The notes under the pieces: model-generated
The model's input: only the letters and a program-made list of their open reading frames with translations
What the model was told of the DNA's origin: nothing
The model's database searches: none
Shown here: positions 1,442 to 49,722 of the stretch, one piece after another
Layout: every line of letters starts with the position of its first letter
Position numbering within the stretch: the stretch's first letter is position 1
Translations under genes and position numbers: made by a program
Origin: Alloalcanivorax gelatiniphagus
GTDB lineage: Bacteria > Pseudomonadota > Gammaproteobacteria > Pseudomonadales > Alcanivoracaceae
Direction of reading: 5' to 3'
DNA length: 64,000 nucleotides
Assembly: GCF_005938655.1 (NCBI RefSeq)
Contig: NZ_VCQT01000022.1
Location: forward strand, 186,001 to 250,000

Positions 1442-2662
1442 TCATGGGGCTTGCTGCCTTTTTTGATGGATGGGAACAACCTCCGCGCCCTCCCGCAAGG
1501 CATCGAGGTAATCCGCCCAGGCCTGCATCATCTTGCGCCGCTCTGCTAGGTACTCAGCCCGGTTATAGGCCGCTCGCACCTTGTTTCGCTCCGCATGAGC
1601 GAGCTGACGCTCGATAAGATCCGGGTTCCAGCCCATTTCATTGAGGCGAGTGGAAGCCATAGAGCGAAATCCGTGCCCAGTCATATCATCTTTGGTGTAT
1701 CCCATCCGGCGGAGAGCGGCGTTGACCGTGTTTTCCGACATTGGGCGGGACGAGGTCCGAACCCCGGGGAATACATATCGCCCGTTACCGGTAAACGGTT
1801 GGAGCTCTTCCAGAATTGACTTAGCTTGACGAGACAAAGGCACGATGTGCTCAGCTCGCATCTTCATGCGTCCCGCCGGTATACGCCATTCAGCCGCACC
1901 CAGATCAATCTCATCCCACTCGGCAGCACGGAGCTCACCTGGGCGGGTGAAAACCAGCGGCGCCAACCTAAGAGCGCAGAGCGTTGTGAACTGGCCCGTG
2001 TAGCCGTCAATGGCACGGAGCAACTCGCCCATTTGGGCTGGCCGCGTGATAGTTGCCCTGTGCTCACTCACTACGGGAGCGAGAGCACCCCTCAGGTCAG
2101 CGCTGGGGTCCCGCTCCGCCCTGCCGGTGGCAATGGCATATCGGAAAATACGACCGCATGTCTGTTTCACTCGGTGGGCTGTTTCGTGCTTGCCGCGTGC
2201 TTCCAACTTGCGCAGCTCCATCAGCAGCGTCGGCGCGGTGATCTCTTGGGCCTGCATCTTGCCCAGGGTCGGAAAGACGAAGGCTTCCAGCATCCAAAGC
2301 GTCTTGGTGTAGGTGCTTTCGGCCAGCTCACGCCGCCTCATTTCAAGCCATTCCCTGCCGATGGCCTCAAAGCGGTTCGCACCTGAGCGGCTCGCCTGCT
2401 CTGCCTTGCGCTGCTCCATAGGGTCGGTGCCACTCGCCAATATCGAGCGAGCACGGTCACGCTTATCCCGTGCGTCCTTCAAGGATACGTCTGGGTAGAC
2501 CCCCAGGGACATAAGCTTCTCTTTGCCGGCGAATCGATACTTGAGCCGCCATCGTTTGCTGCCTGTCGGCGTGACCTCAAGGTACAAACCCCGGCCATCA
2601 AAGAGTTTTCGCCTCTTGGCCTCTGGCTTGGCGGATCGGACGGCGGAATCGGTAAGGGCCAT
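1442..2662 (-). CDS. P4-type tyrosine integrase (tRNA-Arg island)
   Basis: A 406-residue site-specific recombinase that would integrate and excise island A. Residues 1-90 match the DUF4102/Arm-DNA-binding type (KLFDGRGLYLEVTPTGSKRW, MSLGVYPDVSL), then a SAM-like core-binding region (about 100-195) and a C-terminal catalytic domain. Catalytic signatures are visible: an Arg in TRPGELRAAEW, HGFR in GHGFRSMAS, the later His in RQLAHAE and a Tyr in AAYNRAEY. Full length is typical for the family and no frameshift is seen. It lies 165 bases from the CCA end of tRNA-Arg(CCU), in the same orientation, which is the classical arrangement for an island integrated in a tRNA 3' end. The partner attachment site must be left of the window. 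Confidence 0.93.
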   Translation of the reverse strand: MALTDSAVRSAKPEAKRRKLFDGRGLYLEVTPTGSKRWRLKYRFAGKEKLMSLGVYPDVSLKDARDKRDRARSILASGTDPMEQRKAEQASRSGANRFEAIGREWLEMRRRELAESTYTKTLWMLEAFVFPTLGKMQAQEITAPTLLMELRKLEARGKHETAHRVKQTCGRIFRYAIATGRAERDPSADLRGALAPVVSEHRATITRPAQMGELLRAIDGYTGQFTTLCALRLAPLVFTRPGELRAAEWDEIDLGAAEWRIPAGRMKMRAEHIVPLSRQAKSILEELQPFTGNGRYVFPGVRTSSRPMSENTVNAALRRMGYTKDDMTGHGFRSMASTRLNEMGWNPDLIERQLAHAERNKVRAAYNRAEYLAERRKMMQAWADYLDALREGAEVVPIHQKRQQAP

Positions 2663-2827: not shown

Positions 2828-2904
2828 TGGCGCCCCGAGCAGGAATTGAACCTGCGACCTAGCGCTTAGGAGGCGCTTGCTCTATCCGACTGAGCTACCG
2901 GGGC
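2828..2904 (-). tRNA. tRNA-Arg (anticodon CCU)
   Basis: The minus strand reads GCCCCGGTAGCTCAG at the 5' end (2904) and ends in an encoded CCA (2828). The acceptor stem GCCCCGG pairs with UCGGGGC; the anticodon stem AGCGC/GCGCU encloses loop CUCCUAA with anticodon CCU; the T-arm has GCAGGTTCAATTCCTGC. Its 3' end is the probable attachment site of island A. Its 5' 16 bases are duplicated upstream (see the repeat at 2889-3201). Confidence 0.95.
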
Positions 2905-9625: not shown

Positions 9626-11728
9626 TCAGAAGCCCGCTTCCCGGCGCCACACCGCCACCACATGGCGCCAGATCCGGCCCAGAAAGCTGCGCGCCTCGGT
9701 GTCGATGACCACCGCGCCGCGCCGGGCCGGCATCACCGGCGTCCAGTCGCCGTCCGGTTCCTGTACCCGCAGGCGCACCCGATACAGGCTGCCCTCCGGC
9801 ACCAGGGTACCGTCCCGGCGGGCCTCGGCGCGGATCGGTCCGCCGTTGAGGGTGGCCATCTGCGGCTGGCGCAGGCGTTCCACCGGTTGGCCTTCGATGC
9901 TCTCCACCCAAGCCTTCAGCGGCTTGCCCGCCGGCGCCAGCGGATAGAAGGTGGCTTCGCCGCCTTCCTTCAGGCGCAGCACGTCCGCCTCGCCGATCCA
10001 GGCCACCAGCTCCGGCGGCCGGCGCGGCATGTAGGTCAGCAGCCATTCGCCCTGCCCGACCCAGCCGCCGTTGAGCAGGTCCGGGTTGACGGTTTGCACA
10101 TAGCCGTCCGCCGGCGCCGTCAGTTCTCCCAGCCGCCGTTCGCTTTCCAGCAGCCGCACCCGTTCCCGCTGGGTGGCCAGCTCGGCGCCCACCAGCGGGC
10201 TGTCGAACAGCAGATCCCGGTTCAGCCCGCTGGCGTTCCATTGGTCGGTGAGCTGGGCCAGGCGCGTGCCGGCGGCGCTGAGCCGGTAATCGGTTTCCGG
10301 CACCCGCACCGCCGCCAGCGGCGCGCCGGCATCCCGCCATTGGCCGTTGCCGACGGCCAGTTCCAGCCGCCCGCCCAGGGGCGCTTCCACCCGTTGGGTG
10401 GGCTGCTGCAGGAAAGCGGGCAAATGCAGTTGCGAATGCCAGGGCCAGACCAGTAGCAACAGCGCCACGGTGAGCACCGCCAGGGTGCGTGCCAGGGCGC
10501 GGTTCCAGCGCGGCCGGCGGCCGCCGGTGAACCAGCGGCGGACTTCGTTGTAGACGGGACGCACGATGAAATATCCGATTTCCACGGCAAACAGGATGAT
10601 GCCGATCAGTTTGATGAAGAAGTGGTACACCACCAGGGCGATGCCCAGAAACAGAAAGAAGCGGTACACCCAGACGATAAAGGCGAACAGGATCATGCGT
10701 CGCTGGGGCGGTTCCGGCGGCGGCTCGCCGAAGGCGAACAGCAGCTCGCGCAGCTTCCAGCGCGCCAAAGCCTGGGAGCGCGGCTCCAGATTGGGGCGGC
10801 GCCACAGATCCGACAGCAGGTAGTAGCCGTCGAAACGCATCAGCGGGTTGCAGTTGATCACCACCGACATTACCCAGGTGGTGGTGGCCAGCCAGAAACA
10901 CACCAGCCGGGGGGCGCCGTCCGGCAGGATGTGCCAGGCCAGCAGCGCCACCACCGCGATGCCGATCTCCACCGCCATGCCGGCCAGGTCGATCTGCACC
11001 CGGTCCCGGGCGCGGGTCAGCCGCCAGGCGTCGCTGGTGTCGGTGTAGAGCACCGGCCAGCCGACGATAAAGGCCACCCCGATGGTCGGCACCCGGGCCC
11101 CTTTCGCCTTGCAGGTAAAGGCATGGCCAAGCTCGTGCAGGGCCTTTACCAGCACCAGGGCGATGCCCAGGGTGAGCCAGCCGCCGATGGCCTTGAGTGC
11201 GGTGAACTGGGCCCAGAAATTGTCCCATTGGCGCAGGGTCAGCCAGGCGCCCAGCATCAGCAACACCGCCAGGGCCACCCGGGTGCGCCGGTGCCCCAGC
11301 CAGGCCACCTTGCCCAGGTGCCGGCCCAGCCAGCGGTCCGGGTTGGCCAGCGGCACGCGGATAAACAGGTAGTGCTTGAGCAGCCACATGAAGCCCTTGG
11401 GCTTGGCCTGGCGCAGCCGCTGGAAGCGCCGTTGCTGCTCCATATCGGCCACCACCAGATGATGGCCACGCAGAAACTCCGCCAGAGTCATCAGCTGTTC
11501 GCCGCTGACCGGCCGCCCCAGGGTCCGTTGCGCCCGCGCCGCCGCCGGTTCGGCGGCGCCGCCGTCGATAAAGGGCAGCAGCTGCACGGTCTGCTCCCCA
11601 AGCCGGAAGAACCGCTGCGCCACAGGATCGTGGAGCAGCCAGCGGCGGCGCCCGTCCACGTCGCGCTCCACCGGGTGCAGCTTCAGGTCCTGGCGCAGAT
11701 GCGGCAGGTCCGGGGTCGCCGTGTTCAC
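9626..11728 (-). CDS. M50 (site-2-protease-type) zinc metalloprotease fused to a HlyD-like domain
   Basis: A 700-residue polytopic protein. Residues 1-100 are soluble. Several membrane helices follow, containing the zinc motif H198-E-L-G-H202 (KALHELGHAF) and the second M50 motif N294-P-L-M-R-F-D300-G, so the active site looks intact. After the last helix near 450, a periplasmic HlyD/biotinyl-lipoyl-like part runs to the C-terminus (RVEAPLGGRLELAVGNGQW; LTAPADGYVQTVNPDLLNGG). I choose the GTG at 11728 because it overlaps the upstream stop (GTGA); the longer frame to 11824 would run inside that gene. It is the last gene of the five-gene LEPR-x-LL locus. YydH-like peptide-processing proteins share this architecture. 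Inference: it clips or extracts the giant protein in the membrane and links it to the TolC conduit. Confidence 0.85.
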   Translation of the reverse strand: MNTATPDLPHLRQDLKLHPVERDVDGRRRWLLHDPVAQRFFRLGEQTVQLLPFIDGGAAEPAAARAQRTLGRPVSGEQLMTLAEFLRGHHLVVADMEQQRRFQRLRQAKPKGFMWLLKHYLFIRVPLANPDRWLGRHLGKVAWLGHRRTRVALAVLLMLGAWLTLRQWDNFWAQFTALKAIGGWLTLGIALVLVKALHELGHAFTCKAKGARVPTIGVAFIVGWPVLYTDTSDAWRLTRARDRVQIDLAGMAVEIGIAVVALLAWHILPDGAPRLVCFWLATTTWVMSVVINCNPLMRFDGYYLLSDLWRRPNLEPRSQALARWKLRELLFAFGEPPPEPPQRRMILFAFIVWVYRFFLFLGIALVVYHFFIKLIGIILFAVEIGYFIVRPVYNEVRRWFTGGRRPRWNRALARTLAVLTVALLLLVWPWHSQLHLPAFLQQPTQRVEAPLGGRLELAVGNGQWRDAGAPLAAVRVPETDYRLSAAGTRLAQLTDQWNASGLNRDLLFDSPLVGAELATQRERVRLLESERRLGELTAPADGYVQTVNPDLLNGGWVGQGEWLLTYMPRRPPELVAWIGEADVLRLKEGGEATFYPLAPAGKPLKAWVESIEGQPVERLRQPQMATLNGGPIRAEARRDGTLVPEGSLYRVRLRVQEPDGDWTPVMPARRGAVVIDTEARSFLGRIWRHVVAVWRREAGF

Positions 11729-13071
11729 CAGCCCAGCCAGCTCCGCACCGTGGCCCAGGGCCGGCGCAGCAGGTAATAAGCCAGCGTCACCTGCTCCCCT
11801 TCCACCCGGGCGGTGCCACGCCAACCCACCCGAGGCAGGGCTTCACCCTCCGCCAGACGCGCGTGGGCGCGGTAGGCGAGCACCCCGTTGGGGGCCTGCT
11901 CGGCGCGGTAGTTCACCTGGGTCAGGGTGGCGTGGCGCACGGCGGCCGGGTCCACGTTCAGGAACAGGCTGACCTCGGCGCCGTCGGCCAGCGGGATCAC
12001 GTCCGCCGCCGGCAGCCACAGTTCCACCTCGGAGCCGTGGGTGTCGGCCACTTCCATCAGTTTTTCGCCAAGCTGCACCGGCCGCCCGGCCCAGTCGTCC
12101 GGGTTCTGCACCAGCGCCACGCCGGCGCGGGGGGCGGTGACCCGCACCCGCTCCAGTTCGCCACTGTAGAAGGCCACGTCCTCCGCCGCCTGGTCCACCT
12201 GGGCGCTCAGCACCGGCAGTTCAGCGCTGGCCTTGGGGTCGGAGAAAGCGCTTTGCCGGGCCCGCTGATAGCGGGCCCGGGCCACCGCCAGGGCCTGTTC
12301 GGCGGCGGCCAGCCGACCGCGAATGCGGGCGTCGTCCATCTCCACCAGCAACTGGCCCTGCTCCACCGATTGGTTGGCGGACACCGCCAGTCGCGCCACC
12401 ACCCCTTCGATGGGCGCGCGCACGATGCTGCTGGCTTCCGGCACGATCTCCGCGTTGCCGAGCATCGACAGCGGCACCGGAATAATCGACACCAGCGCCA
12501 GGGTCACCAGCACCGCCGCGGCCACCGCCAGCTTCCGTTTGGAGGTCAGCGGCGGGCGCCGGGAGAGCCGCGCCAGCACCGGTTCGGCGGTGGCCAGCCA
12601 GTGGCCCAGCAGGCGCCCTTCCGCCTCGCTCCAGGCCCGCTCACGGAGCAGCAGCAACCCGCCCCGGGCGCGGCCGCCGGCGTTGATCGGCACCCACAGG
12701 CCCCGTGCCGGCCAGTACTCGTTCCACTGCTCGGCCAGCTCCGGCGAGCGTTCCGCCAGTGCCGCCTTGTCCACCTCCCGGGCCGGGCCGGCGTCGCCGT
12801 CCTGGTCCCATTGGAAGGCCCGCGCCACCCGGCGCACCCATTGCAGATAGGGGCTCTGGGCGTCCACCTCGGCGGCGCCGGAATGGGCCCGCAGGGTGCC
12901 GTGGCGGAACAGGATCAGTTGCCGGGCGGGAAACGGGTAGGCGGAATCATTGACCAGCACGTACTCCGCCTGGGCCAGATCCTCGGCGTCCAGCAGCCGC
13001 TGCTGCAGGGCGATGAGGCTGGCCAGGCGGTCGGTGGAAACACCGGCACCGGGTATCACCCGTTGATTCAT
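11725..13071 (-). CDS. HlyD-family adaptor with N-terminal GAF-like domain
   Basis: A 448-residue membrane-fusion protein. Residues 1-165 look like a GAF-type cytoplasmic sensor (LILFRHGTLRAHSG; GLWVPINAGGRARGGLLLL). One membrane helix lies at about 181-200, followed by a periplasmic lipoyl/hairpin/beta-barrel set (IVRAPIEGVVARLAVSANQS; coiled-coil 255-320; VTAPRAGVAL; the C-terminal segment). It would bridge an inner-membrane component to TolC. The start overlaps the previous stop (ATGA) and its own stop overlaps the M50 start (GTGA), so translation is coupled. The cytoplasmic GAF-like part is unusual for HlyD proteins and might sense a ligand or dock a partner. Confidence 0.85.
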   Translation of the reverse strand: MNQRVIPGAGVSTDRLASLIALQQRLLDAEDLAQAEYVLVNDSAYPFPARQLILFRHGTLRAHSGAAEVDAQSPYLQWVRRVARAFQWDQDGDAGPAREVDKAALAERSPELAEQWNEYWPARGLWVPINAGGRARGGLLLLRERAWSEAEGRLLGHWLATAEPVLARLSRRPPLTSKRKLAVAAAVLVTLALVSIIPVPLSMLGNAEIVPEASSIVRAPIEGVVARLAVSANQSVEQGQLLVEMDDARIRGRLAAAEQALAVARARYQRARQSAFSDPKASAELPVLSAQVDQAAEDVAFYSGELERVRVTAPRAGVALVQNPDDWAGRPVQLGEKLMEVADTHGSEVELWLPAADVIPLADGAEVSLFLNVDPAAVRHATLTQVNYRAEQAPNGVLAYRAHARLAEGEALPRVGWRGTARVEGEQVTLAYYLLRRPWATVRSWLGW

Positions 13072-13829
13072 GAATCCGCCCCGGCGCTAGCCGGGAAGCG
13101 CACCGCGCCGCTCATGCCCGGCCGCACGCCCACCGCCTCGCCGGTGGGCGTGGCGATCAAGCGCACCGTCTGGCTGACCGGGTCGATGCGGTCGACAATG
13201 CGCGCCACCTTGGCGGCCACGGTCTGGCCGGTGGCGTCGGCCACGAAGGTCAGCGCCGAGCCTTCCTTCACACGGGTCAGCCAGGCGGCCGGCACCACCA
13301 CCTCGATCTCGAAGCGCACCACGCTGCTCAGTTCCAGCATCGGCTCACCGGCGGACACCCATTGGTAGGGGTTCACGTTGCGGCCAACCACTTCACCGTC
13401 GAACGGCGCGTCCACCACGCAGTCGCCCAGCCGCACCTCGGCCACTTTCAGTTCGGCGGCGGCGCGCTCCACTTCCGCGCCGGACAGCTCCACTTCCAGG
13501 GCACTGATGTTCTGGTAGGCCTGCAGGTCCTTATTGACCTTGTGCTGGGCGCGGGCGGCGGACAGCCGGGCCCGGGCCACGTCCCGTTCCGCCTGGGGCG
13601 AGCGGCAGTCGAAGCGCACCAGGGCATTGCCCTTGGCCACCCGCTCGCCGAGGCGCGCCTTCACTTCCAGAATGCGGCCCTGGCGTGGCGCCGCCAGCAC
13701 GGTGTGCTCCACCGCGCTGATCTGGCCACGAATATCGCCGTCGCCACTGACCGTCTGAGCGCGGACCGCCGCCGGGGCGGCGACCATCAGCACCGCCGTG
13801 AATAATCCAATCAACCACCCTGCTCTCAT
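13068..13829 (-). CDS. periplasmic adaptor (RND/HlyD type)
   Basis: A 253-residue secreted adaptor with a Sec signal peptide (MRAGWLIGLFTAVLMVAAPA, cleavage near residue 25), a lipoyl half-motif (VLAAPRQGRILEVKARLGER), a short coiled hairpin (about 80-125), the second lipoyl half (VVDAPFDGEVVGRNVNPYQW) and a beta-barrel. It is shorter than AcrA-type adaptors, lacking much of the membrane-proximal domain. ATGA overlaps couple it to the TolC gene upstream and the GAF-HlyD gene downstream. Two different adaptors in one operon suggest a layered periplasmic assembly. Confidence 0.87.
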   Translation of the reverse strand: MRAGWLIGLFTAVLMVAAPAAVRAQTVSGDGDIRGQISAVEHTVLAAPRQGRILEVKARLGERVAKGNALVRFDCRSPQAERDVARARLSAARAQHKVNKDLQAYQNISALEVELSGAEVERAAAELKVAEVRLGDCVVDAPFDGEVVGRNVNPYQWVSAGEPMLELSSVVRFEIEVVVPAAWLTRVKEGSALTFVADATGQTVAAKVARIVDRIDPVSQTVRLIATPTGEAVGVRPGMSGAVRFPASAGADS

Positions 13830-15460
13830 TGCGCGGCGGCTTCCCGGTCATCGGCGCTGGCCAGCGGCTGGTTGCTGCCGGCCACGTTCTCGGTGAACCA
13901 GGGCGAGCCGGCTTCGATCGGCAGCGGGCCCCGGGTCCACTCGGCGAACGCCGCGTTGATGCGGTTGGACAGCGCCTGCACGTCGTAGCTCTGATAGTTC
14001 TCCGGCACCGGGTTGAAGCCCAGGCTGAACAGGAAGCCACCGTAGGCGTCCTGGGCTTTCACGTAATCCAGGGAGTTGGTCAGCACCGAGTTGAGCGCGC
14101 GGGCCTCGTTCATCAGCGTCTGGGTGCCGGACATGGCGTTGCTGGAACGGGCCTGGCCGCTGTAGTCGGCGATCTGCTCGTCGATGGTCAGGAACTCATT
14201 GGACAGGGTCAGATCGTTGAGCGCGTTGCGGTACTGCTGCCAGCCCAGGTTGACCCGTGCCACGGTGGCCATGTTGGCGGCCAGACGGCGGGCCTCCACC
14301 AGGTTGCCACGGGCCTCGTTCTGGGCGCGGATGTCGCCCAGGGCGAACAGGCGCAGCAGGTTCCAGCTCACCCGCACACCGGCTTCCGCCCAGGTGTCGT
14401 TGTACAGATAGCTGTTGGAGTCGTAGTGGCCGCCGTAGGAGAACTCCAGGCCCGGCAGCAGACGCAGCAGGCTTTTACGCGCTTCGCGCTGGGCGATGCG
14501 GGCATTGTAGATCTGGCCGGTATAGTCGCTGCTGTGCGCCAGCGCCACCTGCTCCAGGGTGTCCAGGTCCTCCACCGGCAGTTCCGGCAGCTCCGGCAGA
14601 TTGTCCACATCCGCCAGTTCGATATGCACCCCCGGCGGCTGGTTGATCAGTGCCGCCAGTTCGATCTGGGCGGCGTCCACGGTGCGGCGGAAACTGCGCA
14701 GGCTGCGCATCACCGCCAGCAGCTGGCGTTTTTCCTGCAGCACGTCCATGGGCGCGCGCAGGCGACGCTGCTGGATTTCGTTCATGCGCTTCAGCTCGGC
14801 GCCGGTTTCGTCCAGCAGCCCGTCGATGCGTTCCAGCAGGTGCTGGGTGACAGCGGCACGCCAGTAGGCGGTGCGGGTTTCCTGCAGCAGCTTGGCCATC
14901 ACATTGCGGCGGGCGTCGGCGGCGATCAGGTAGCGGTCCGCTTCCTGTTTCGCCTTCAGGTAACTGACGCCGAAGTCGAGCACGTTCCAGGACAGTTCCA
15001 GGTCGGCGTAGTGACGATCGTCGTCCACCGAGGTGGACGGTTCCAGGCTCTGGGTGCCGGTAAGCACGGATTCACTGCTGGAGGCGTTCACGTTGCTGCG
15101 GCTGTTGTAGCCGGCACGGGCCGCCAGTACCGGCAGCATGTCCATCTTGGCCAGCTCGAAGCCGCGCTCGGAGAGCGCTTCTTCCATCAGTTTGACCCGG
15201 TTGTCCAGGTTGTACTTGAGCGCTCTCGCCAGCGCCTGGTCGAGGGTCAGCGGGCCGCTGATCGGGTCCGCCATGGCGTCCATCATCGCCTGATCCTGCT
15301 CGATGGCTTCGTGGATCTGGTCACGATCCAGCGGCTGCGGGTTCACCGCGCAGCCGCTGGCCACCAGACCGGCGGCCAGGGCCACCGCCATCGCCAGCCC
15401 GGACACCGCCCGGCGCGGTGCTTGCTTGGAAGAAATAGTTATTGTGTTGAAAACCTGCAT
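13826..15460 (-). CDS. TolC-family outer-membrane lipoprotein channel
   Basis: A 544-residue outer-membrane efflux protein. A lipobox (LVASGCAVN, Cys37) indicates lipid anchoring as in OprM/NodT-type channels. Two OEP repeats of long coiled-coil helices follow (about 75-270 and 300-490), with the typical openings LTLDQALARALKYNLDNRV and VALAHSSDYTGQIYNARIAQ. It would form the exit duct of this locus. It starts 56 bases after the giant-protein stop, past a GC hairpin that may reduce read-through, and its stop overlaps the next start. Confidence 0.9.
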   Translation of the reverse strand: MQVFNTITISSKQAPRRAVSGLAMAVALAAGLVASGCAVNPQPLDRDQIHEAIEQDQAMMDAMADPISGPLTLDQALARALKYNLDNRVKLMEEALSERGFELAKMDMLPVLAARAGYNSRSNVNASSSESVLTGTQSLEPSTSVDDDRHYADLELSWNVLDFGVSYLKAKQEADRYLIAADARRNVMAKLLQETRTAYWRAAVTQHLLERIDGLLDETGAELKRMNEIQQRRLRAPMDVLQEKRQLLAVMRSLRSFRRTVDAAQIELAALINQPPGVHIELADVDNLPELPELPVEDLDTLEQVALAHSSDYTGQIYNARIAQREARKSLLRLLPGLEFSYGGHYDSNSYLYNDTWAEAGVRVSWNLLRLFALGDIRAQNEARGNLVEARRLAANMATVARVNLGWQQYRNALNDLTLSNEFLTIDEQIADYSGQARSSNAMSGTQTLMNEARALNSVLTNSLDYVKAQDAYGGFLFSLGFNPVPENYQSYDVQALSNRINAAFAEWTRGPLPIEAGSPWFTENVAGSNQPLASADDREAAAQ

Positions 15461-15516: not shown

Positions 15517-18500
15517 CTAGAGCGCTTCCTCGGGATGCGCCAGCAGTGTCATCAAATCCTCCATCACCCGGGCCTGGTCGCCGGCGAAGCCGGAGTGACC
15601 GGCCACCGCCAGGGACTCCGCCAGGGACGGGGCGCCTTTCTCCGGCATCGGCCGGCCCGGCTCGCCCAGGGCCGAGGTGCGGCCGTCGGCGGGCGCCTCC
15701 GTCGGCGTCGCCTGCCCGTTATCCGGTACCGGGTGATCGTTCTGCTGCACCGATTGGTCGTTCCGCGGCAGCAGGTGGATCACGAAGGTATCGCTCGCTT
15801 CGTTGCCGGCCAGGTCGTGGCCGACCACCTTCACATCCACCCGCTCCACGCCCAGGGCCAGGGCCTGCGGGCGCTCCACCCGGAAGGTCCTGGAGTCCGT
15901 ATCGAAGGTGATGTAGGCCGGCAACGGGCTGCCGTCGGCCTGGGTCGCCTCCACGCTGATCGGCTGATCCGAATCGCTGTGGAAAGTGTTGGCGGGCAGC
16001 GCGAACAGGTAGATGTCCTCGTTGGCCACCACGTCGCGCAGGGCGATACGCAGCTCGATGGGCTGGATTTCCGGCAGCTCGAAGTAGGCGTCGTAGTCAC
16101 CGGCGAAGCGCAGCGGGTCATCGCCGCCTCCGGAGAACGGACCGCCGTCGCCATCAATGTCCTCGGTGCCACGGTCCGGCACGATCGGCGGCTGCGGATC
16201 GGTGGGCGTGGGCGTCGGATCGGTGGGCACGTAGGGGTCGTTGCGGCCATCCACGCGCACCGTCAGGGTGGCGGTGTCGAAGCCGCCCTCGCCGTCGCTG
16301 ACGCGGTACTGGATCGAGGTATCCCGGCTTTCCCGGGCATTAAGACCACGGAAGTCGCCGCGCGGGTCGAAGCGGAAACTGCCGTCCGCCTGCAACTGGA
16401 AGCGACCGCCCTGGTCACCGTTGACCCACTGCCCCACCGCCAGGGTGTCACCGTTGACCGCGTCCACGGTGAGCGGGTCGCCGTCCGGGTCCTGATCGTT
16501 GTCCAACACGTTGCCGCCGGTGCCGGTGAGTTCATCGGCCACCGCGCCATCGTCGCTGGCCACCGGCGCCGGGTTGGCGATGGTCCAGTTGAACTGCATC
16601 TGCACGCTGCCACCGTTGCCGTCGGAGGCGGTCACGGTGACGGTGTAGGTGCCGTCATTGCCGCCCTGGGAGGCGCTGCGCTGCGGGGTCCCGGTAATGA
16701 TGCCGGTGGCCGGGTCGATGCTGAGCCCCGGTGGCAAACCATTGGCGCTGTAGGTGAGGGTGTCGGTGCCGTCCACATCGGTGAAGGCGCCGGACACGTC
16801 CAGCGGGTCCACCGGAACGCTGTCCCGGCCGGCCTGATCAGACGGCGTGTTGCCGGTGACCACGGTGGGCGCGTCGTTGACGCCGGTGACGGTGATTTCC
16901 AGGGTGGCGGTGTCGAAGCCGCCCTCGCCGTCGCTGACCTGATACTCGATGGAGGTGGTGCGGGTCTCGCCCACCGCCAGGTCATCGAAGTCGCCGTTGG
17001 GGTCGAAGCTGTAGCTGCCGTCCTCGTTGATGGTGAACTGGCCGCCCTGGTCGCCATCCACCGCTTCACCCACCTTGGCGCCATCGCCGCCTACCTGGCT
17101 GACCGTCAGATCGTCGCCGTCCGGATCGCTGTCGTTGGTCAGCACGTTACCGGTGGTGGTGGTGTCCTCGTTGGTGGTGCCGGTGTCGTTGACCGCTTCC
17201 GGCGCCGGGTTGCTCACCGTCCAGTCGAAGCTCACGTCCACGGTGCCGCCGTTACCGTCATCGGCGGTAATGGTGACCGTGTAGGTGCCGTCGTTACCGC
17301 CCTGGGAGGCGTCCCGATCAATGGTGCCGCTGATCACCCCGGTGGCCGGATCGATGCTCAGCCCCGGCGGCAGGCCATCGGCGCTGTAGGTGAGCGTGTC
17401 GGTGCCGTCCACATCGGTGAAGGCGCCGGACACATCCAGCGGATCCACGGTGTCGCTGTCGTCGCTGGTCTGTGCCTCGGGCGCGCTGCCGGTGACCCCC
17501 GTGGGCGCGTCGTTGACGCCGGTGACGGTGATTTCCAGGGTGGCGGTGTCGAAGCCACCCTCGCCGTCGCTGACCTGGTACTGGATGGAGGTGGTGCGGG
17601 TCTCGCCCACCGCCAGGTCATCGAAGTCGCCGTTCGGGTCGAAGCTGTAGCTGCCGTCCTCGTTGATGGTGAACTGGCCACCCTGGTCGCCGTCCACCGC
17701 TTCGCCCACCTTGGCGCCATCGCCACCCACCTGGCTGACCGTCAGATCGTCGCCGTCCGGATCGCTGTCGTTGGTCAGCACGTTACCGGTGGTGGTGGTG
17801 TCCTCGTTGGTGGTGCCGGTGTCGTTGACCGCTTCCGGCGCCGGGTTGCTCACCGTCCAGTCGAACTGCGCCTGCACGGTGCCGCCATTGCCGTCGGAGG
17901 CGGTGACGGTCACCGTGTAAGTGCCGTCGGTGCCGCCCTGGGAGGCAGCCTTGTCGATGGTGCCGCTGATCACCCCGGTGGTTGCGTCAATGGTCAGCCC
18001 CGCCGGCAGGCCTGTGGCGCTGTAGGTCAGGGTGTCGGAGCCGTCCACATCGGTGAAGGCGCCGGACACGTCCAGCGGGTCCACCGTATCGCTGTCGTCG
18101 TTGCTTTGTGCCTCCGGCACATTGCCGGTGACCACCGTGGGAGCGTCGTTGACGCCGGTGACGGTGATTTTCAGCGTGGCGGTGTCGAAACCGCCTTCGC
18201 CGTCGCTGACCTGATAGTCGATGGAGGTGGTGCGGGTCTCGCCCACCGCCAGGTCATCGAAGTCACCGTCGGGGTCGAAGCTGTAGCTGCCGTCCTGGTT
18301 CAGGGTGAACCGGCCACCGTTGTCACCGTCCACCGCCTGGCCCACCTCCGTGGCCTCACCATTCACTTCGCTGACCGTGAGAGCGTCGCCGTCCGGGTCG
18401 CTGTCGTTGGTTAGCACATTACCGCTGGTGGTGCTGTTCTCGGTGGTGGCGCCGGAGTCATTGACCGCTTTCGGCTCCGGGTTGCTGACGGTCCAGTCGA

Positions 18501-21500
18501 AGCTCATGTTCGCCGAGGCGCTGCCATCGGAGGCGGTGACGGTCACGGTATAGGTGCCGTCGGTGCCGCCCTGGGAGGCAGCCTTGTCGATGGTGCCGCT
18601 GATCACCCCGGTGGCGGCGTCAATGGTCAGCCCCGCCGGCAGGCCGGTGGCGCTGTACGTCAGGGTGTCGGAGCTGTCCACATCGGTGAAGGCGCCGGAC
18701 ACATTCAACGGACTGATGGTGTCGTGGTCGGCGTTGTTCTGGTCGTTCGGCACGTCAGCCGTGATCACCGTCGGGGCGTCATTAACACCGGTCACGGTGA
18801 TTTTCAGCGTGGCGGTGTCGAAGCCGCCTTCGCCGTCGCTGACCTGGTACTCAATGGAGGTGGTGCGGGTCTCACCGTCCGCCAGGTCATCGAAGTCGCC
18901 ATTCGGGTCGAAGCTGTAGCTGCCGTCCTCGTTGATGGTGAACCGGCCACCGTTGTCACCGTCCACCGCCTGGCCCACTTCCGTGGCCTCGCCATTCACT
19001 TCGCTGACCGTGAGAGCGTCGCCGTCCGGGTCGCTGTCGTTGGTCAGCACATTGCCATTGGTGGTGCTGTTCTCGGTGGTGGCGCCGGTGTCATTGACCG
19101 CTTTCGGCTCCGGGTTGCTGACGGTCCAGTCGAAGCTCATGTTCGCCGAGGCGTTGCCGTCAGAGGCGGTGACGGTCACGGTATAGGTGCCGTCGGTGCC
19201 GCCCTGGGAGGCGGCCTTGTCGATGGTGCCGCTGATCACCCCGGTGGCGGCGTCAATGGTCAGCCCCGCCGGCAGGCCGGTGGCGCTGTAGGTCAGGGTG
19301 TCGGAGCTGTCCACATCGGTAAAGGCGCCGGACACATTCAACGGACTGATGGTGTCGTGGTCGGCGTTGTTCTGGTCGTTCGGTACGTCAGCCGTGACCA
19401 CCGTCGGGGCGTCGTTGACACCGGTAACGGTGATTTTCAGCGTGGCGGTGTCGAAGCCGCCTTCGCCGTCGCTGACCTGGTACTCAATAGAGGTGGTGCG
19501 GGTCTCACCGTCCGCCAGGTCATCGAAGTCGCCATTCGGGTCGAAGCTGTAGCTGCCGTCCTCATTGATGGTGAACTCACCGCCGTTGTCACCGTCCACC
19601 GCCTGGCCCACATCCGTGGCCTCACCATTCACTTCGCTGACCGTGAGAGCGTCGCCGTCCGGGTCGCTGTCGTTGGTCAGCACATTGCCATTGGTGGTGC
19701 TGTTCTCGGTGGTGGCGCCGGTGTCATTGGTCGCTTTCGGCTCCGGGTTGCTGACGGTCCAGTCGAAGCTCATGTTCACCGTGCCGCCATGGCCGTCCTT
19801 GGCGGTGACGGTCACGGTATAGGTGCCGTCGGTGCCGCCCTGGGAGGCGGCCTTGTCGATGGTGCCGCTGATCACCCCGGTGGTGGCGTCAATGGTCAGC
19901 CCCTGCGGCAGGCCGGTGGCGCTGTAGGTGAGCGTGTCGGAGCCGTCCACATCGGTAAAGGCGCCGGACACGTCCAGCGGGGTGATGGTGTCGTGGTCGT
20001 CGTTGCTCTGGTCGGCCGGTACCTCACCGGTGACCACCGTCGGGGCGTCGTTCACGCCGGTAACGGTGATGGTCAGCGTGGCGGTGTCGAAGCCGCCTTT
20101 ACCATCGCTGACCTGGTAGTCGATGGAGGTGGTGCGGGTCTCACCGTCCGCCAGGTCATCGAAGTCGCCATTCGGGTCGAAGCTGTAGCTGCCGTCCTCA
20201 TTGATGGTGAACTCACCGCCGTTGTCGCCGTCCACGGTCTCGCCCACATCCGTGGCCTCGCCGTTCACCGCGCTCACCGTCAGGTCGTCGCCTTCCACGT
20301 CAGTGTCGTTGGGCAGCACGTCGCCGGTGGTGCCGGTGTTCTGATCGGTGCCGCCGGTATCGTCCACGGCCACCGGCGCGTCGTTCACCCCGTTAACGGT
20401 GATGGTCAGCGTGGCGGTGTCGAAGCCACCTTCACCATCGCTGACCTGGTACTGGATGGAGGTGGTGCGGCTCTCGCCCACCCCCAGATCCTCGAAGTCG
20501 CCGTCCGGGTCGAAGCTGTAGCTGCCGTCCTCGTTGATGGTGAACTGGCCACCGTGGCTGCCGTCCACCGCCTCGCCCACCTCCGTGGCCTCACCATTCA
20601 CTTCGCTCACCGTCAGCTGATCGCCGTCCGGGTCGCTGTCGTTGGTCAGCACATTGCCATTGGTGGTGCTGTTCTCGGTGGTGGCGCCGGTGTCATTGAC
20701 CGCATCCGGTGCCGGGTTACTGATGGTCCAGTTGAAGTTCATGTCCACCGTGCCGCCATGGCCATCCTTGGCGGTCACGGTGACGCTGTAGGTACCGTCA
20801 GTACCGCCCTGGGAGGCGGCCTTGTCGATGGTGCCGGTGATCACGCCGGTGCTGGTGTTGATGCTCAACCCCGGCGGCAGGCCCTCGGCGCTGTAGGTCA
20901 GGGTGTCGGAGCCGTCCACATCGGTGAAGGCGCCGGACACGTCCATGGAATAGATGACATCGCTGTCGTCGTTGCTTTGTGCCTCCGGCACATTGCCGGT
21001 GACCACCGTGGGCGCGTCGTTGACGCCGTTGACGGTAATCGTCAGCGTGGCGGTGTCGGTGCCACCGTTGCCGTCGCTGACCTGGTACTGGATGGAGGTG
21101 GTGCGGCTTTCGCCGGTCGCCAGGTCGTCGAAGTCGCCGTCCGGGTCGAACGTATAGCTGCCGTCCTCGTTGATGGTGAACCGGCCGCCGTTGCCGCCGT
21201 CCACCGCCTCGCCCACGTTGTCCTCGTCACCACCGACCTGGCTGACCGTAAGGGTGTCACCATCCGGATCCGTGTCGTTGGTCAGCACGTTGCCGTTGGT
21301 GGTGCTGTTCTCCGTGGTGGTTTTCTGGTCGTTGACCGCCTGCGGCAGGTCGTTGGTGTTCACCGCCCGCAGACTGCCGGTGAGGGTGTTGCTGTTCAGT
21401 GCCTCGGGGCCGCCGGCCTCATCGTTGTTGTTGCCGTCGTTGACCACGATGCGGTAATCCCGGCTGCTGGTGTCCGGGGCGTCGCTGGTGTTTTCGTAGC

Positions 21501-24500
21501 GCAGCGATTCAATCAGCGCGGTGACCTGGGCGGCGGTGGCGCCCTCCGCCAGATGAATGGTGAGGCTGCCGTTGCCGCTGTCCACGGAGGCGATGCCCGC
21601 GGCTTCGTCGTCCACCAGGGAGAACACATCGGCGGCGGTGGCATCGTCCAGGGTGACGGTAATGGTACCGCCGCCGAAGTCGTTGCCGTCCACGTCACTC
21701 AGGGTCACGGTGCCAGCGTCCACCAGCGGTTTCTGTTCACTGCCGGTGTCCAGGCCCTCGTTCTCCACCACCACCACTTCGCCGGGCAGGTCGGCGCCCA
21801 GCACCGGCGCATCGTTGATCGGCTTGACCGTGATGCCCAGGGTCACCGCGTCGTCGCTGTCGGACCAGATGCCGGTGGCGTCGAAGGTCACGTCCGCGCG
21901 CTGGCCGGCGTTGGCGGCCTGGCTGTCGCCGCTGGCGTCAACCTCGGCCACCACGTAGGTCAGGCCGTCCGGGGTGCCGTGGTAGTCCGCCGCCGGCAGG
22001 AAGCGCACGCGGCTGTCCGGGCCCAGCACCAGGGCGTTGTCCACCGAAACATCCGAGGGTACGTCCACCCAGCCGCTGCCGGTGTTGTATTGCCAGCGGC
22101 CCTGATTGGCCTCCGACGGATTGTCGATGATGGCGATGCCGCCGAAATCGTCGGCGCTGCTGCCGCCGCTCTCCGCCACCTCGGTCTGGTCGTCGGTGCC
22201 GTCGTTGAAGTTGCCGCCGGCCAGGTTGGCGACGGTGTCGCCGTTGCCGGAAGAGTCCTCATTGATGTCCTGCAACGACACACCGCTGGTCGGCGTGGTG
22301 GGCGCGTCATTGATGGCGGTGATGCTCGCTTCCACGGCGGTGGCGGTGTCGGACCAGACACCGGTCTGTTCGCCCAGATCGCCGTTCTGGGTCAGGTTGA
22401 AGGTGTCGGCACCGTTGCTGCTGGTGGTCAGGCTGGGCTGGCTGTTGTCGCCCAGACGCACGGTGAGGCCGCCGGGCTGGCCGTTGAAATCCGAGGCCGG
22501 CTTGAAGCGCACCAGGGTGTCGGCGGTGACGATCAGTGCGCTGCTGTCGCTGAGCGCGGTGGACACGTCCACCCAGTCGCCGTCGATTTGAATCTGCCAG
22601 ACGCCCTGATCGGTGTTGGCGTCGTTGCCGGTGATGGCGATAAAGCTGAGCGCGGTTTCCTCGCTGGCGGCACTGCCGCCGTTTTCGTCGGTCTGGTCGT
22701 CGGTCTGGTCGCTGTATTGATCGCCGAGCAGATCGCCCAGGGTCTGGCCGCTGCCGCCGTTACCGTCTTCATCGGTGGGCGTCAGGGTGACCGTGTCACC
22801 GTCGGCCACCGGACGGTCGTTCACCGGCGTCACGTCCAGGTTCACCGTGATGCTGTCCTGCAGGGCGCCGCCGGTACCGGTGTTGCCGCCGTCATTGACG
22901 GTGATGGTGAGGGTGTCGGCACCGTAGTAGTTGCTGTCCGGCTGGTAACGGGCCTGGTCCAGCAGCGCGTTGAGCTGGGCTTTGGTGGCGCCGGTCAGCG
23001 TCAGGGTGCGACCGCCGTCGCTGAGCGTGCCCAGATCGGTGTCGAAGGTGCCGTGGGTGACGGTGAGCGTGATGCTCATGCCGGAGCCGCCGAAGTCGTC
23101 CGCATCGGCCACGCCGTAGCCAGACAGATTCAGGCTGCCGTCCTCGGGCACCGTCACGGAGTCGCCTGTGTCGCCGGGGCCGCTGACCACCGGCGCATCG
23201 TTGGTGCCGCTGATATTGACGCGCACCACCTTGGAGACGGTTTCGTTGTTGGCCGGGTCCTTGTTCTGATCACCGTTGCCCTTGTCGTCAAAGGTGATTT
23301 TCAGACGCGCGGTGCCGTCCGCGTTGCTGTCGCCCGGGGTGAAGGTCAGGTCGGCGAGCTGGGCGTTGATGTCCGCCAGGGTACCGGTCAGGGTCAGGGA
23401 GGTGGAGCCGGTGCCGCCACCGATGGACACCAGCCCGGCGGCGTCATTGGCACCGCTGAGGACTTCCACGGTCACCGACTGATAATCGTTGAAAACGTCC
23501 TGACCGCTGTCCGCGTTATCCGCCACGCTGACGCCGCCAATGGCAATGGAGCCGCTGCCGTCGTCGTCGAAGGTCTGGGTGCCGGGCACGGTCAGCGAGG
23601 GTTTGTCGTTGACCGCCTCGATGGTGAGGGTGGCGGACTTGCTGTCGCTGAGGGCGGTGCCGGTGCCGTGCAGGTCGCTGTCGGTGACCTGCATCGTCAG
23701 GGTGGTGGTGCCGTTGTCGTTGGCCGCCGGGGTGTAGGTGATGTTGTCCAGGGCGGTGCGCAGGGTGTCCAGACGACCGGTGAGGGTCAGTTGGCCGGTG
23801 CCGGCGCCGCTCACGGTGAGACCGCCGGCATTGGCCACGCCAAGGGCGCCGGCACCCACGTTGATCACCACCGTCAGGTCTTCGTCGAAGGCATCCACAT
23901 CACTGAGGTCGAGCCCCTGCAGCAGGCCGGGGGTGTCCTCGGTGAAGGTCTGATCCGGCAGCGTCCCCACCGGCGCGTCGTTGCTGGTGGACGCGATCAG
24001 TTCGATGCTGGCCCGGTCGGTGTTGTTGGCCTCGGAGATCGGCGTGCCGTCCTCGTTGGCCGGGCCGCCGTTGGCGCCACCGCCGGCGAGCCGGTCATCC
24101 ACCACCGCCTCCACGGTGAGCCGCTGGTTGAGGTCGCCGGTGATTTCCACGCTGAGCGTGGCAAGCGCCGCGCGTACCTCCGCCAGGGTGCCGCTAAGCT
24201 GCAGCTCGGCGCCGCTCAGCGTGGTGCCGTCCAGGGTGGCGCGCAGCAGCGCGTCGGCGCCGTCCACCGGATCGCCGCTGGCGTCCAGAATGCGCAGGTC
24301 CACGGTGATGTAGTCGGTCTCGCCATCGCCCAGGTCGGTGAGATCCGCGTCGCCGATGGTGAACACACCGCCCAGGTCCAGGGGCGAGCCGGACACCAGG
24401 TTGTCCGAGGGCGGCGTGGCCTCCACGGTGGGCGCGTCGTTGCGGGCATCGACCAGGATCTCGAAGGTGCCTTCGGCGGAGGTTTTCGGGCCGTCGCTGA

Positions 24501-42107: not shown

Positions 42108-43484
42108 ATGACCAAGCTGACGGCTAAGCAACTGGAAGCCCTCACCGCAACGGATGACGGCAGGACACTACGCGAGGATAACGGCCTGGTCGCCAAGGTC
42201 CGCGCCGGCGTTCGTGGCGTCACGGCACTGTTTCGCTATGAGTTCAAGCTGGATGGGGTCAAGCGCGATTACCGCCTCGGCAGCTGGCCCAAGAACACAC
42301 TCGCTCAGATTCGGGCCAAGCGTGACGAAGCCAAAGCCTCAGTCGCTAAAGGTATCAACCCCAACGCCGCCCAGAAGGCAGCCAGGATTGAAGCCCAAGC
42401 CGCCATTGCCTCAACCATCGCCGAAGCCGAGCGCCAAGCGTCGGAAAACAGGACGGTGAACGAGCTATTTGAAGCCTGGCTCGACGATGGGGTATCACGG
42501 CAAGATGGCAACGCCGAACTCCGCAGAAGTTTTGGCAAAGACGTGCTCCCCTTGATTGGCAAGACGCCGCTGCGTGCCTTGACCGATAAGGACCTTCTCT
42601 CCGTGCTCAGAACAGTAAAGGCTCGCGGCCTGAACCGCTCCGTCGTCATTCTGAACAACGACATGGGTCAAATGCTGCGTTGGGCGGAGAAGCGGCAACC
42701 CTGGCGCACCTTGATGGCTGACGGGAACCCCGCCGACCTGGTGGATGTCACCACCCTGCTGGATAGCGACTATCAGGAAGAACGGGAGCGGGTGCTCTCC
42801 GCCGAAGAGATCCGAGAGCTGCATGACATCTTCGAGAAGCTGGAAGCGGATTACGCTGCCCTGCCGGCGGGCCAGAAATACAGCGGCATCCGCCCGGTAA
42901 ACCCCCGCGTGCAAAGCGCCATCTGGATATGCCTGGCAACCCTATGCCGCATCGGCGAGCTGCTTCAAGCGGAGTGGAAGCATGTCGACTTTGACACCGG
43001 TCTCTGGTTCATTCCCGCGAAGAACACCAAAGGACATCGCGGAAAGCGGCAGGATCATCATGTCTTTCTGTCGCCTTTTGCATTGTCACAGTTCAAACGG
43101 CTACACCAGGAAACCGGCCACACTGCCTTCCTATTTCCCAACAGAGCCGGAGATAGCCACGTCAACACCAAAAATGTCAGCAAACTGATCGGTGACCGGC
43201 AATGCCGCTTCAAGAATCGCAGCAAACCTCTGGCCGGCCGGCATCATGATGACAGTCTAGTCTTGGCAAATGGCCAAAATGGCGCATGGACGCCGCACGA
43301 CATGCGCCGCACTGGCGCGACAATGATGCAAGCGATCGGCGTACCGCTCGACATCATTGATCGCTGTCAAAACCATCTTCTGGGCGGCTCGAAAGTCCGG
43401 CGGCACTACCTGCGCCATGACTACGCCAAAGAGAAAACTGAGGCATGGAAACTGCTAGGGGAGCACATAGAAGCGTTACTGTAA
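42108..43484 (+). CDS. tyrosine integrase (tRNA-Pro island)
   Basis: A 458-residue integrase with DUF4102-like N-terminal arm-binding domain (LVAKVRAGVRGVTALFRYEF; RLGSWPKNTLAQIRAKRDEA), core-binding region (about 115-200) and catalytic domain. Catalytic residues: Arg in CRIGELLQAEW, H-x-x-R in PHDMRRTGAT, His in DRCQNHLLG and Tyr in HYLRHDYAKEK. It shows little similarity to the island A integrase beyond the family layout, fitting a different tRNA target. GGGGG plus AGGACATG precedes the start. It lies 184 bases from the tRNA-Pro half. The 184 bases between them hold only an imperfect hairpin (GCGGCTTTCAGGCCGC). Confidence 0.92.
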   Translation: MTKLTAKQLEALTATDDGRTLREDNGLVAKVRAGVRGVTALFRYEFKLDGVKRDYRLGSWPKNTLAQIRAKRDEAKASVAKGINPNAAQKAARIEAQAAIASTIAEAERQASENRTVNELFEAWLDDGVSRQDGNAELRRSFGKDVLPLIGKTPLRALTDKDLLSVLRTVKARGLNRSVVILNNDMGQMLRWAEKRQPWRTLMADGNPADLVDVTTLLDSDYQEERERVLSAEEIRELHDIFEKLEADYAALPAGQKYSGIRPVNPRVQSAIWICLATLCRIGELLQAEWKHVDFDTGLWFIPAKNTKGHRGKRQDHHVFLSPFALSQFKRLHQETGHTAFLFPNRAGDSHVNTKNVSKLIGDRQCRFKNRSKPLAGRHHDDSLVLANGQNGAWTPHDMRRTGATMMQAIGVPLDIIDRCQNHLLGGSKVRRHYLRHDYAKEKTEAWKLLGEHIEALL

Positions 43485-44018: not shown

Positions 44019-45286
44019 TCAGATAGAAAGTCCGGTAACGATAATGACAAAGAAGAGAACGTTCAGTCCGGAATTCCGCTTGGCGGAGGCCTAGCTCGGT
44101 CGACCAGGGCTATTCACTGAAAGCGGCCTGTGATGCCATGGGGGTTGGCGAGTTCACCATGGAGTACTGGGTTCGCAAGCTCCCTTCCGAATGAGCAGGC
44201 AACGTACCGAAAGGCGAAGCCCTGACCCCGGAACAGCGTGAGATTCAGGAACAGAAACGCAAGCTGCGGCGGGTGGAGGAAGAAAAGGAAATCTTAAAAT
44301 AAGGCTACTGCTCTCTTGATGTCGGACTCCCTGAACAATTCTCGATAATTGAGCGACTTGAACGGTGCAACGCCTATGTCAGGTATTTGGGGTTCATCGC
44401 AGCAGCTACCGGCCGGCGTGACCGGGACAAAGAGCGCTGTGAGGCTGAGAAAACGCTGCTGGATCAGGTTGTCGAGGCGCATGCTGCCAGTAACGGCTCT
44501 GCGGGGCTCGCAGCATTGCCAAGATCGCCACCCAGGCTGGAACGACACTGAGCCGGTACCGTGCCGGCAGACGGATGAAGCAGTTAGGGCTGGTCAGCAC
44601 GCGGCCGCCAGGGCACTCCTACAAGAAGGCGGATCAGCCACACCTGGACATCCCGAACCGTCTTGATCAGGAGTTCGATGTAAAGGAGCCCAATCAGGCT
44701 TGGACCGGAGATACTACCTATATCTGGACAGGAGTGCGCTGGGCTTACCTGGCGGTGGTTATCGACTTTTTCCTGTAAACCCGTGGACTGGGCGCTGTCC
44801 CTGCCCCCCAATACGGAACTGGTAAAGAAGCCCCTAACCATTGCCTATAGGTCGTGGGGCGAGCCACAGGGCGTCATGTTTCATTCAGATCAGGAGTGCC
44901 AGTACACCAGCCTGGGATTCCGAGAGTTGCTCTGGCGCCATCACATGAAGCAGAGTCTCAGCCGGCGAGGAAGTTGCTGGGATAACGCCCCGACAGAGCG
45001 GTTCTTCAGGATTTTGAAAACGGAGTGGGTACCGGAAATCGGGTATCCGTGCTGTATCTCGGCGAAGCAGTCGATCACGGACTATATGATCGGCTATTAC
45101 AGCGTTCTGCGACCGCACAAGCACAACGGCGAGCTGCCGCGCAATGTCGCAGCAGGCTTACTGGAAAACTCAAAAGACGGCGGCCTGAAATACTTGGCCA
45201 CTACACTTGGAGTTAATCACAGTCAGTTGAATTCAAACAGAACGGTCTGGGCAAACTCCGTGTAGCTTGATCACAGTCAAAAATCA
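43998..45286 (+). mobile_element. IS3-family element, decayed
   Basis: Imperfect terminal repeats: TGATTTTGAGTGTATGATCA at 43998 and the inverse of TGATCACAGTCAAAAATCA ending at 45286. Between them are orfA- and orfB-like transposase fragments. No matching target duplication is visible, consistent with flanking deletion. Confidence 0.7.
44044..45265 (+). pseudogene. IS3-family transposase OrfA/OrfB, frameshifted
   Basis: OrfA starts MTKKRTFSPEFRLAEA but meets a TAG after 16 codons and more stops later. The orfB part is split over three frames (44349-44666, 44575-44778, 44783-45265). The last carries the DDE core: MFHSDQECQYTS with the second Asp and SRRGSCWDNAPTERFF before the final Glu. Several frameshifts and stops make it inactive. 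Confidence 0.82.
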
Positions 45287-48304: not shown

Positions 48305-48331
48305 GGCAATAGCCTCTCTTCCTGATTCAGA

Positions 48332-49684: not shown

Positions 49685-49710
49685 ACAACCTCCTGTTGTT
49701 TTGAACGGCG

Positions 49711-49722
49711 TTTGATACTCAA
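49711..49722. promoter_or_regulatory. shared 12-mer upstream of the permease gene
   Basis: TTTGATACTCAA at 49711-49722 is repeated exactly at 53107-53118, just before the response-regulator gene. Both are within about 35 bases of a start codon in the copper region. A candidate regulator site, unproven. Confidence 0.35.

Follow-up and report, generated by a model that had tools for sequence, protein, structure and literature searches.

A site-2 protease fused to an export adaptor, encoded with a TolC-family channel and a LEPR-type giant protein

We analysed a stretch of 64,000 nucleotides of the Alloalcanivorax gelatiniphagus genome (contig NZ_VCQT01000022.1, positions 186,001 to 250,000; hereafter the window). 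Our subject is a protein of 700 amino acids, encoded on the minus strand at 9626..11728, in which a domain resembling a recognition element (RRE) of ribosomally synthesized and post-translationally modified peptides (RiPPs), an M50 (site-2 protease) core and a membrane fusion protein follow one another in one chain. We propose, with a probability of roughly 0.5, that giant proteins of the LEPR type are exported by a TolC-linked route free of ABC transporters, in which this protein acts as the inner-membrane gate and as an intramembrane leader peptidase guided by its RRE-like domain.

A five-gene run ending in the protease

The protease gene is the last of five on the minus strand, preceded by the genes for a giant protein, a TolC-family channel and two adaptors, here called AD1 and AD2. 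The giant (15517..27324) consists of 3935 amino acids with immunoglobulin-like (Ig) and cadherin repeats; it contains no cysteine, and 688 aspartates and glutamates stand against 120 lysines and arginines. The outer-membrane channel (13826..15460) has 544 amino acids and matches OEP (PF02321, E = 4e-25). AD1 (13068..13829, 253 amino acids) is an RND-type periplasmic adaptor (TIGR01730, 121.7 bits against a cut-off of 94.9), and AD2 (11725..13071) combines an N-terminal region of about 180 amino acids, one hydrophobic segment and a HlyD half, according to Pfam and hydropathy. Genes overlap by 4 bases at each joint from TolC through AD1 and AD2 to the protease, and 56 bases separate the giant from TolC; we take the run to be an operon. 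The GTG start of the protease gene overlaps the stop codon of AD2, and a TTG farther upstream would give an alternative open reading frame of 732 amino acids. No ABC, RND or MFS transporter is found among the five genes, and no ABC transporter among the neighbours scanned.

The N-terminus of the giant reads MDNLDFQALEPRLLLDAAAA and holds the LEPR leader motif LEPRLLLDAAAA at residues 9–20 (27265..27300, minus strand). The corresponding model, NF012209, scored 23.8 bits against a cut-off of 17 in a search of the genome, where it was the sole match over cut-off, and 12.5 bits, below that cut-off, when the whole protein was scanned; the motif is visible by eye. A regular expression for RTX nonapeptides found none in the giant.

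Domains and active site

Frame translation and alignment locate the two motifs that the first-pass annotation had described, HELGH at residues 198–202 (11123..11137, minus strand, as are all positions given for this chain) and NPLMRFDG at residues 294–301 (10826..10849). They lie in an M50 core at residues 147–427 (10448..11290), whose seven helices in an AlphaFold2 model we took as membrane spans, with support from the bias in lysine and arginine. The core is followed at residues 433–681 (9686..10432) by a membrane-fusion-protein half of lipoyl, helical-hairpin and barrel domains, predicted to be periplasmic. HExxH and N/P..DG motifs within membrane helices are the sequence marks of a site-2 protease, and lipoyl, hairpin and barrel domains those of the membrane fusion protein or HlyD family; by these features of sequence and fold, the chain is both.

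Profile and structure comparisons agree with this assignment. In Pfam, HlyD_3 matches residues 536–620 with 29.6 bits against a cut-off of 22.2; Peptidase_M50 matches residues 189–264 with 20.8 bits, under its cut-off of 27.2, and is matched by all seven members of a smaller alignment (A1; best E = 8.6e-11). A larger alignment of 35 rows comprises the window protein and 34 homologues from 32 genomes, for which 34 of the frames of 40 relatives were used (two duplicates, three incomplete frames and the short L010 were dropped). Run against solved sequences, its profile found MacA (4dk1, E = 8e-19), the site-2 protease MJ0392 (3b4r, E = 2e-4) and RseP (7w6x, E = 0.0099). The whole-chain AlphaFold2 model built from it reached a mean predicted local distance difference test (pLDDT) score of 87.7 and a predicted template modelling score (pTM) of 0.71, and shows a small mixed domain at residues 7–88, a run of long helices and the lipoyl, hairpin and barrel half. 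Residues 409–683 superpose on MacA (9qgy) with a Z score of 15.9 and a root mean square deviation of 4.0 over 235 residues, and the same half also matches the folds of MexA, EmrA and AcrA; it fills the whole-chain list of structural matches, which is therefore uninformative for the other domains. The adaptor-like character that had been read into the C-terminal half is thus borne out by HlyD_3 and the MacA-type fold, and in the structure predicted for the protein alone this half does fold as a lipoyl/HlyD domain.

Fourteen columns are invariant in the 35 rows (K195, H198, E199, H202, G217, P225, G250, E254, W265, N292, D300, Y302, D307 and G630), and six of these (K195, H198, E199, H202, N292 and D300) lie in or flank the protease centre, in agreement with the earlier description of the active site as intact. 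P295 is replaced by glycine in one row (L040). We also scanned species genomes by way of the second active-site motif, which gave at least 565 relatives among at least 592 stretches, and took the best 80 as named loci; the single window protein, used as a query against genome contigs, had returned 21 stretches and no relative. HE..H occurs in all 80 named loci (76 under a strict test; the other four show HEFGH and NLNPFMRFDG), and the second motif is no independent test there, as these loci were found by it. To judge from these alignments, the conservation of the motifs goes beyond chance, and the M50 centre is probably proteolytically active. We considered a vestigial protease and rejected it because the few positions that never vary include catalytic residues.

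With the seven helices taken as spans, lysine and arginine make up 17 of 109 loop residues on the side of the N-terminus and 2 of 43 on the other, and the N-terminal side is the richer in all 35 rows. This bias fits a topology with the N-terminus inside and the C-terminus outside, in which the N-terminal domain is predicted to be cytoplasmic and the adaptor half periplasmic.

An RRE-like N-terminal domain

Residues 7–88 (11465..11710) form a domain that we describe as PqqD/RRE-like on the basis of profile matches, a weak but consistent fold match and the predicted cytoplasmic location. Searched against 177,635 sequences of the Protein Data Bank, the 35-row profile of this domain gave five matches at E ≤ 10: TbiB1 (8.8e-4), TfuB1 (0.0036), PqqD (0.0044), a MarR-type regulator (0.092) and a PqqC/D fusion (1.5). 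The first three bind leader peptides in peptide maturation, and TbiB1 and TfuB1 are RREs; structure 5v1u is titled as a leader-peptide complex. The PqqD model of Pfam matches 8 of the 35 rows at E ≤ 1 (best 5.7e-7), and the two best-represented PqqD models of NCBIfam match five and four rows. A named relative, from a Pseudohalocynthiibacter plasmid and annotated ‘PqqD family protein’, exceeds the PqqD cut-off (27.3 against 23.4), holds M50 (below cut-off) and HlyD_3 in the same chain and adjoins a SecA-like gene. Modelled alone, the domain reaches a pLDDT of 90.6, and a Foldseek search with it places RiPP-enzyme structures at ranks 1, 2, 3, 5, 7, 8 and 14, amid unrelated rows; CteB and SuiB hold an RRE.

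The best NCBIfam match of the window protein is the daptide leader protease NF041824 (E = 8e-45, residues 21–387), at 153.5 bits, below the equivalog cut-off of 300 bits, and this model also aligns weakly with the N-terminal domain alone (E = 0.006). An RRE-like identity of residues 7–88 appears well supported for the family and indirectly supported for the window member. By analogy, the domain could bind a leader peptide, and the chain resembles a RiPP leader protease (RRE and M50) that has acquired an export adaptor by fusion.

Distribution and association with LEPR giants

A match to the protease protein was found in none of 12 genomes of its own genus, in none of 23 of its own family and in 8 of 21 from other families of the same order, from which we conclude that its distribution is patchy. 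Our sample was 369 genomes of the class, in which we counted as positive the 57 with an A1 match of at least 160 bits (some of these are fragments, for example G240, G150, G209, G112 and G271). LEPR was over its cut-off in 35 genomes. Both features occur in 31 genomes, the protease alone in 26, LEPR alone in 4 and neither in 308, giving an odds ratio of 92 and P = 4e-25, a value that shared ancestry makes too good. Among the 26, a regular expression finds a LEPR leader in at least G055, G378, G361 and G168.

The neighbourhoods of the 80 named loci contain AD2 in 78 cases, AD1 in 64 and TolC in 49; 58 have a LEPR or large repeat frame, with LEPR itself visible in 20. Flanks reached at most 10 kb and were often ended by the contig, so that each positive count is a minimum and an absence holds for the flank alone; large repeat frames were recognized from their composition, and those on the opposite strand include shadows. 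The association is also visible in annotated records. Plasmid ABSP7_p2 of A. brasilense Sp7 encodes, at 238256-257247, a DUF4347 giant, TolC, an RND adaptor, HlyD and a protease relative, and its giant starts MALEPRFMFDAAG, with the LEPR motif at residue 3. E. coli plasmid pABWA45_1 encodes an Ig-like giant with the leader variant FALESRQLFDGAA, again with TolC, an RND adaptor, HlyD and a protease relative. Relatives are annotated as ‘HlyD family efflux transporter periplasmic adaptor subunit’, ‘biotin/lipoyl-binding protein’ or ‘site-2 protease family protein’, and occur in Pseudomonas, Pectobacterium, Azospirillum and Pelagibacteraceae, as well as on plasmids of Escherichia and Citrobacter.

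These data bear on one alternative, namely that the protease cuts something other than the giant (an adaptor, say, or a small RiPP-like peptide) and is linked to the giant through operon history alone. The named NCBIfam relatives are indeed RiPP proteases (daptide and YydH/LiaK), but the co-occurrence with LEPR across the 369 genomes and the recurrent five-gene order speak against this alternative, and we consider it very improbable compared with a role in the export of LEPR giants.

Several loci are worth recording in their own right. Protease relatives are found in 18 Escherichia and 8 Citrobacter plasmid records; on one IncF-type E. coli plasmid (NZ_CP022155.1; L235, L237), the five-gene run has insertion-sequence transposases on both sides. 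Four Pelagibacteraceae contigs (L192, L205, L215 and L222) encode the protease with one or two adaptors, and L205 has a LEPR frame (2372 codons) as well. The longest LEPR frames noted have 14,112 (G295:C84:83224), 13,848 (G109:C1:429854) and 12,249 codons (G163:C1:2506229). At G050:C14:80260-81486, a 408-amino-acid M50 protein has no adaptor half and an N-terminal domain that looks alike by eye, and is followed by a gene for 415 amino acids; it is perhaps an unfused state.

Two clades and a SecA-like neighbour

A tree of 49 rows separates 11 (clade B) from 38 (clade A, including the window protein) with support of 100/100; proteins outside the tree were assigned to a clade by score. Pseudohalocynthiibacter aestuariivivens is among the clade B organisms. 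One genome, G053, has two separate clade A runs (C41 and C101) with strongly differing proteases. In G049 (clade A), the end of the protease gene shares 4 bases with a histidine kinase gene (L022:14461-16338, minus strand); histidine kinase, OmpA-like and TctC genes each lie downstream of single clade A proteases and are not common to the others.

Leaders differ between the clades. We collected 30 leader rows by regular expression, taking start codons according to a simple score for ribosome sites, and left out two from G358, which has both clades, and two from genomes without the protease protein. D[GA]A after hydrophobic residues occurs in all nine leaders of clade-A-only genomes and in none of the 17 of clade-B-only genomes, of which 14 carry SAD (Fisher P = 3e-7 for leader type against protease clade, for which shared ancestry is the obvious alternative reason).

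Directly downstream of clade B proteases lies a gene for a SecA relative of 658–670 amino acids. SecA DEAD, cross-linking and P-loop domains were found in all five that we scanned (SecA_DEAD at E = 7.5e-82 to 5e-104 in four; the fifth has 668 amino acids), and Walker A-type GEGK[ST] and DEAD motifs in all four that we read. All four fall below every SecA and SecA2 cut-off, and Pfam recognizes nothing beyond the P-loop domain, that is, no C-terminal scaffold or wing part. A search of 51 genomes gave 22 SecA matches of this second kind (below 360 bits), of which 17, in 16 genomes, lie on the same strand as the protease match, downstream and at most 452 bases away. The other five are about 16 kb off (G365), on another contig (G137), on the contig of a LEPR frame (G409), a fragment (G398) or weak (G376). 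The last of these (G376:C1:2166885-2168012) scores 95.7 bits and lies within an open frame of 3151 codons, some 20 kb distant from the protease. More than one SecA match is found in 24 of the 57 protease-bearing genomes and in 4 of the 312 others (P = 3e-18, again made too good by shared ancestry; G156 may be a split gene).

The SecA-like genes bear on what we regard as the main rival explanation, tether and release: some transporter would export the giant with its C-terminus leading, its LEPR N-terminus would stay anchored by the RRE-like domain and the M50 site would cut on a signal, perhaps sensed by a GAF-like end of AD2, so that the protease controls shedding and not entry. Sec moves chains N-terminus first, and the adjoining SecA-like motors of clade B would favour movement in that direction. 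A clear GAF domain is present in the AD2 of one clade B relative, which fits release on a signal, but of three clade A relatives scanned one gave a weak GAF_2 match, and the matches of the window AD2 include no GAF. Also in keeping with tethering, the LEPR motif lies at the very start of the chain (residue 3 in A. brasilense, residue 9 in the window giant), and retention followed by cleavage is the logic of LapA-type adhesins as set out in an excerpt of PMC7730722. On balance we consider shedding control unlikely, and hold to leader removal at entry as the preferred reading.

ABC transporters

TolC conduits are described, in the part of PMC8277102 consulted, with energised ABC, RND or MFS transporters. 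We rejected membership of type I secretion for the window run because the cassette contains no ABC transporter. An ABC transporter could be encoded elsewhere, in which case the giant would leave by ordinary type I secretion and the M50 chain would be an accessory adaptor. The presence of TolC and of HlyD- and RND-type adaptors favours this explanation. So does a survey of 25 protein-bearing genomes chosen for completeness: LssB-type ABC transporters were over cut-off in five and PrtD-type in two, one of them the genome of the window (C20:73776, 730 bits), and 12 have an ABC transporter of type I secretion grade. Nothing in the other 13 exceeds 360 bits for the LssB model or 270 bits for the PrtD model (thresholds that we set ourselves; G279 is borderline, at 351 bits with a frame of 767 amino acids). 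Further against an unlinked transporter, a regular expression found an ABC-like frame of at least 480 amino acids near just 2 of the 80 named loci, and the giant lacks the RTX nonapeptides sought. We rank this explanation next after tethering and think it quite unlikely. An ABC-like frame beside the G168 cassette was rejected as a pump, as the 479 amino acids scanned hold two ABC_tran stretches and ABC_tran_Xtn; we presume that it is of a soluble type.

A possible route of export

From the gene run, its leaders and its relatives, we infer the following route through a leader peptidase and gate. In the cytoplasm, the PqqD-like domain would bind the N-terminal LEPR leader of the giant, a step suggested by the type of domain, the position of the leader and the matching of leaders to protease clades. 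The giant would then cross the inner membrane at a ring formed by AD2 and the protease protein, with SecA as the motor or, for the sister clade, the dedicated SecA-like protein encoded next to the protease. At the cytoplasmic side of the membrane, the M50 site would cut the leader. Together with AD1 and AD2, the adaptor half of the protease chain would seal to TolC, through which the giant would pass the outer membrane.

A broader claim is that this constitutes a separate pathway for giant proteins, free of ABC, RND and MFS pumps, which combines RiPP-type leader recognition, a SecA-type motor (the housekeeping one in clade A, a dedicated one in clade B), leader removal by a site-2 protease and a fused adaptor that leads to TolC. 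We advance this tentatively, at somewhat less than even odds.

A number of observations weigh against these proposals. The window protein itself has no match to the PqqD model of Pfam, and Foldseek with its N-terminal domain alone gives no match at E ≤ 0.001 (best E = 0.29). The giant has no Sec-type signal, its hydropathy over 19 residues reaching at most 0.95 in the first 400 residues; AD1 and TolC begin with hydrophobic segments of 2.0. No SecA-like gene lies within the flanks of the 80 named loci (clade A type), exactly one SecA match is found in each of the 19 clade-A-only genomes searched, and eight clade B genomes (G339, G405, G345, G261, G232, G245, G350 and G051) likewise have one. 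The four LEPR genomes without the protease, the 26 protease genomes without a LEPR match and the ABC transporters of type I secretion grade described above, including that of the window’s own genome, belong here too. Finally, G045 has AD2 and the protease and no TolC or LEPR frame that we could see in 38 kb, in a listing of the longest non-overlapping frames that undercounts and that hid TolC, AD1 and AD2 in the window.

The first-pass annotation had suggested that a substrate is cut while it enters the TolC path. The motifs, the adaptor fold and the linkage to TolC, the adaptors and the LEPR giant uphold the setting of that suggestion, and the RRE-like domain and the tracking of protease clade by leader type support it indirectly; that the giant is the substrate, the leader the site and entry the moment of cutting is what we infer. 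The RRE-like domain, the missing energised transporter and the SecA-like motor of the sister clade were not part of that annotation.

Were a pumpless route confirmed, it would be a new kind of export. The gene run links the LEPR-XLL giants to a single protein with a single residue (E199) as a target for mutation, and relatives of this protein in tractable organisms make the system testable there. The run also suggests that giant surface proteins have taken over the kind of leader recognition used for peptide natural products, and that TolC conduits may be fed by a SecA-type motor.

Neighbouring genes in the window

The flanks are unrelated to the gene run: on one side lie genes that we take to be LysE-type and aminomutase-like, and on the other recC and recD, presumably with recB between them. 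Mobile elements are near the run without adjoining it, namely a tyrosine integrase (1442-2662, minus strand) beside a tRNA-Arg gene (2828-2904, minus strand), a second integrase (42108-43484, plus strand) and a short rve-type integrase-core frame (44783-45265, plus strand). Copper-handling genes occupy 45727-55131 and include a P-type ATPase with YHS and heavy-metal domains, CopB and a multicopper oxidase, together with a response regulator and a histidine-kinase-like gene.

Comparison with known systems

In type I secretion (HlyB/HlyD/TolC and LapB/C/E), a TolC-family channel, HlyD-like adaptors and a giant repeat protein as neighbour are shared with the window run. The run differs in having no ABC transporter in the cassette, two adaptors and a third fused to the protease, and a putative signal at the N-terminus of the giant, which also lacks RTX repeats by regular expression. 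In V. parahaemolyticus MfpABC, a calcium-binding protein is encoded beside a HlyD homologue (PMC7923509); MfpB is described as a potential ABC-type transporter and no M50 protein is mentioned in the portion of that article consulted, and we rejected MfpABC as the same system on account of MfpB.

We found no description of the gene run, or of the exit route of LEPR-XLL giants (frames of up to 14,112 codons), in the PubMed Central literature searched, which included excerpts of PMC10868602 and PMC12322963 and lay outside subscription papers and preprints.

MacA, MexA and EmrA share the fold of residues 409–683, whereas the window adaptor half stands behind an M50 membrane protease and has no MacB, RND or MFS partner gene. 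SecA and SecA2 share the DEAD, cross-linking and P-loop domains with the clade B neighbours, which are of 658–670 amino acids, have no Pfam match to scaffold or wing and are absent from the clade of the window protein.

The M50 core is shared with the daptide protease MpaP (NF041824) and with YydH/LiaK (NF058609), models of 379 and 246 positions that leave no room for an adaptor half such as that of the window protein. MpaP and YydH/LiaK act on small peptides, whereas the operon partner of the window protease is a protein of 3935 amino acids. Judged from sequence, and with its export steps as proposed above, the system would be a new form of TolC-linked export of giant proteins.

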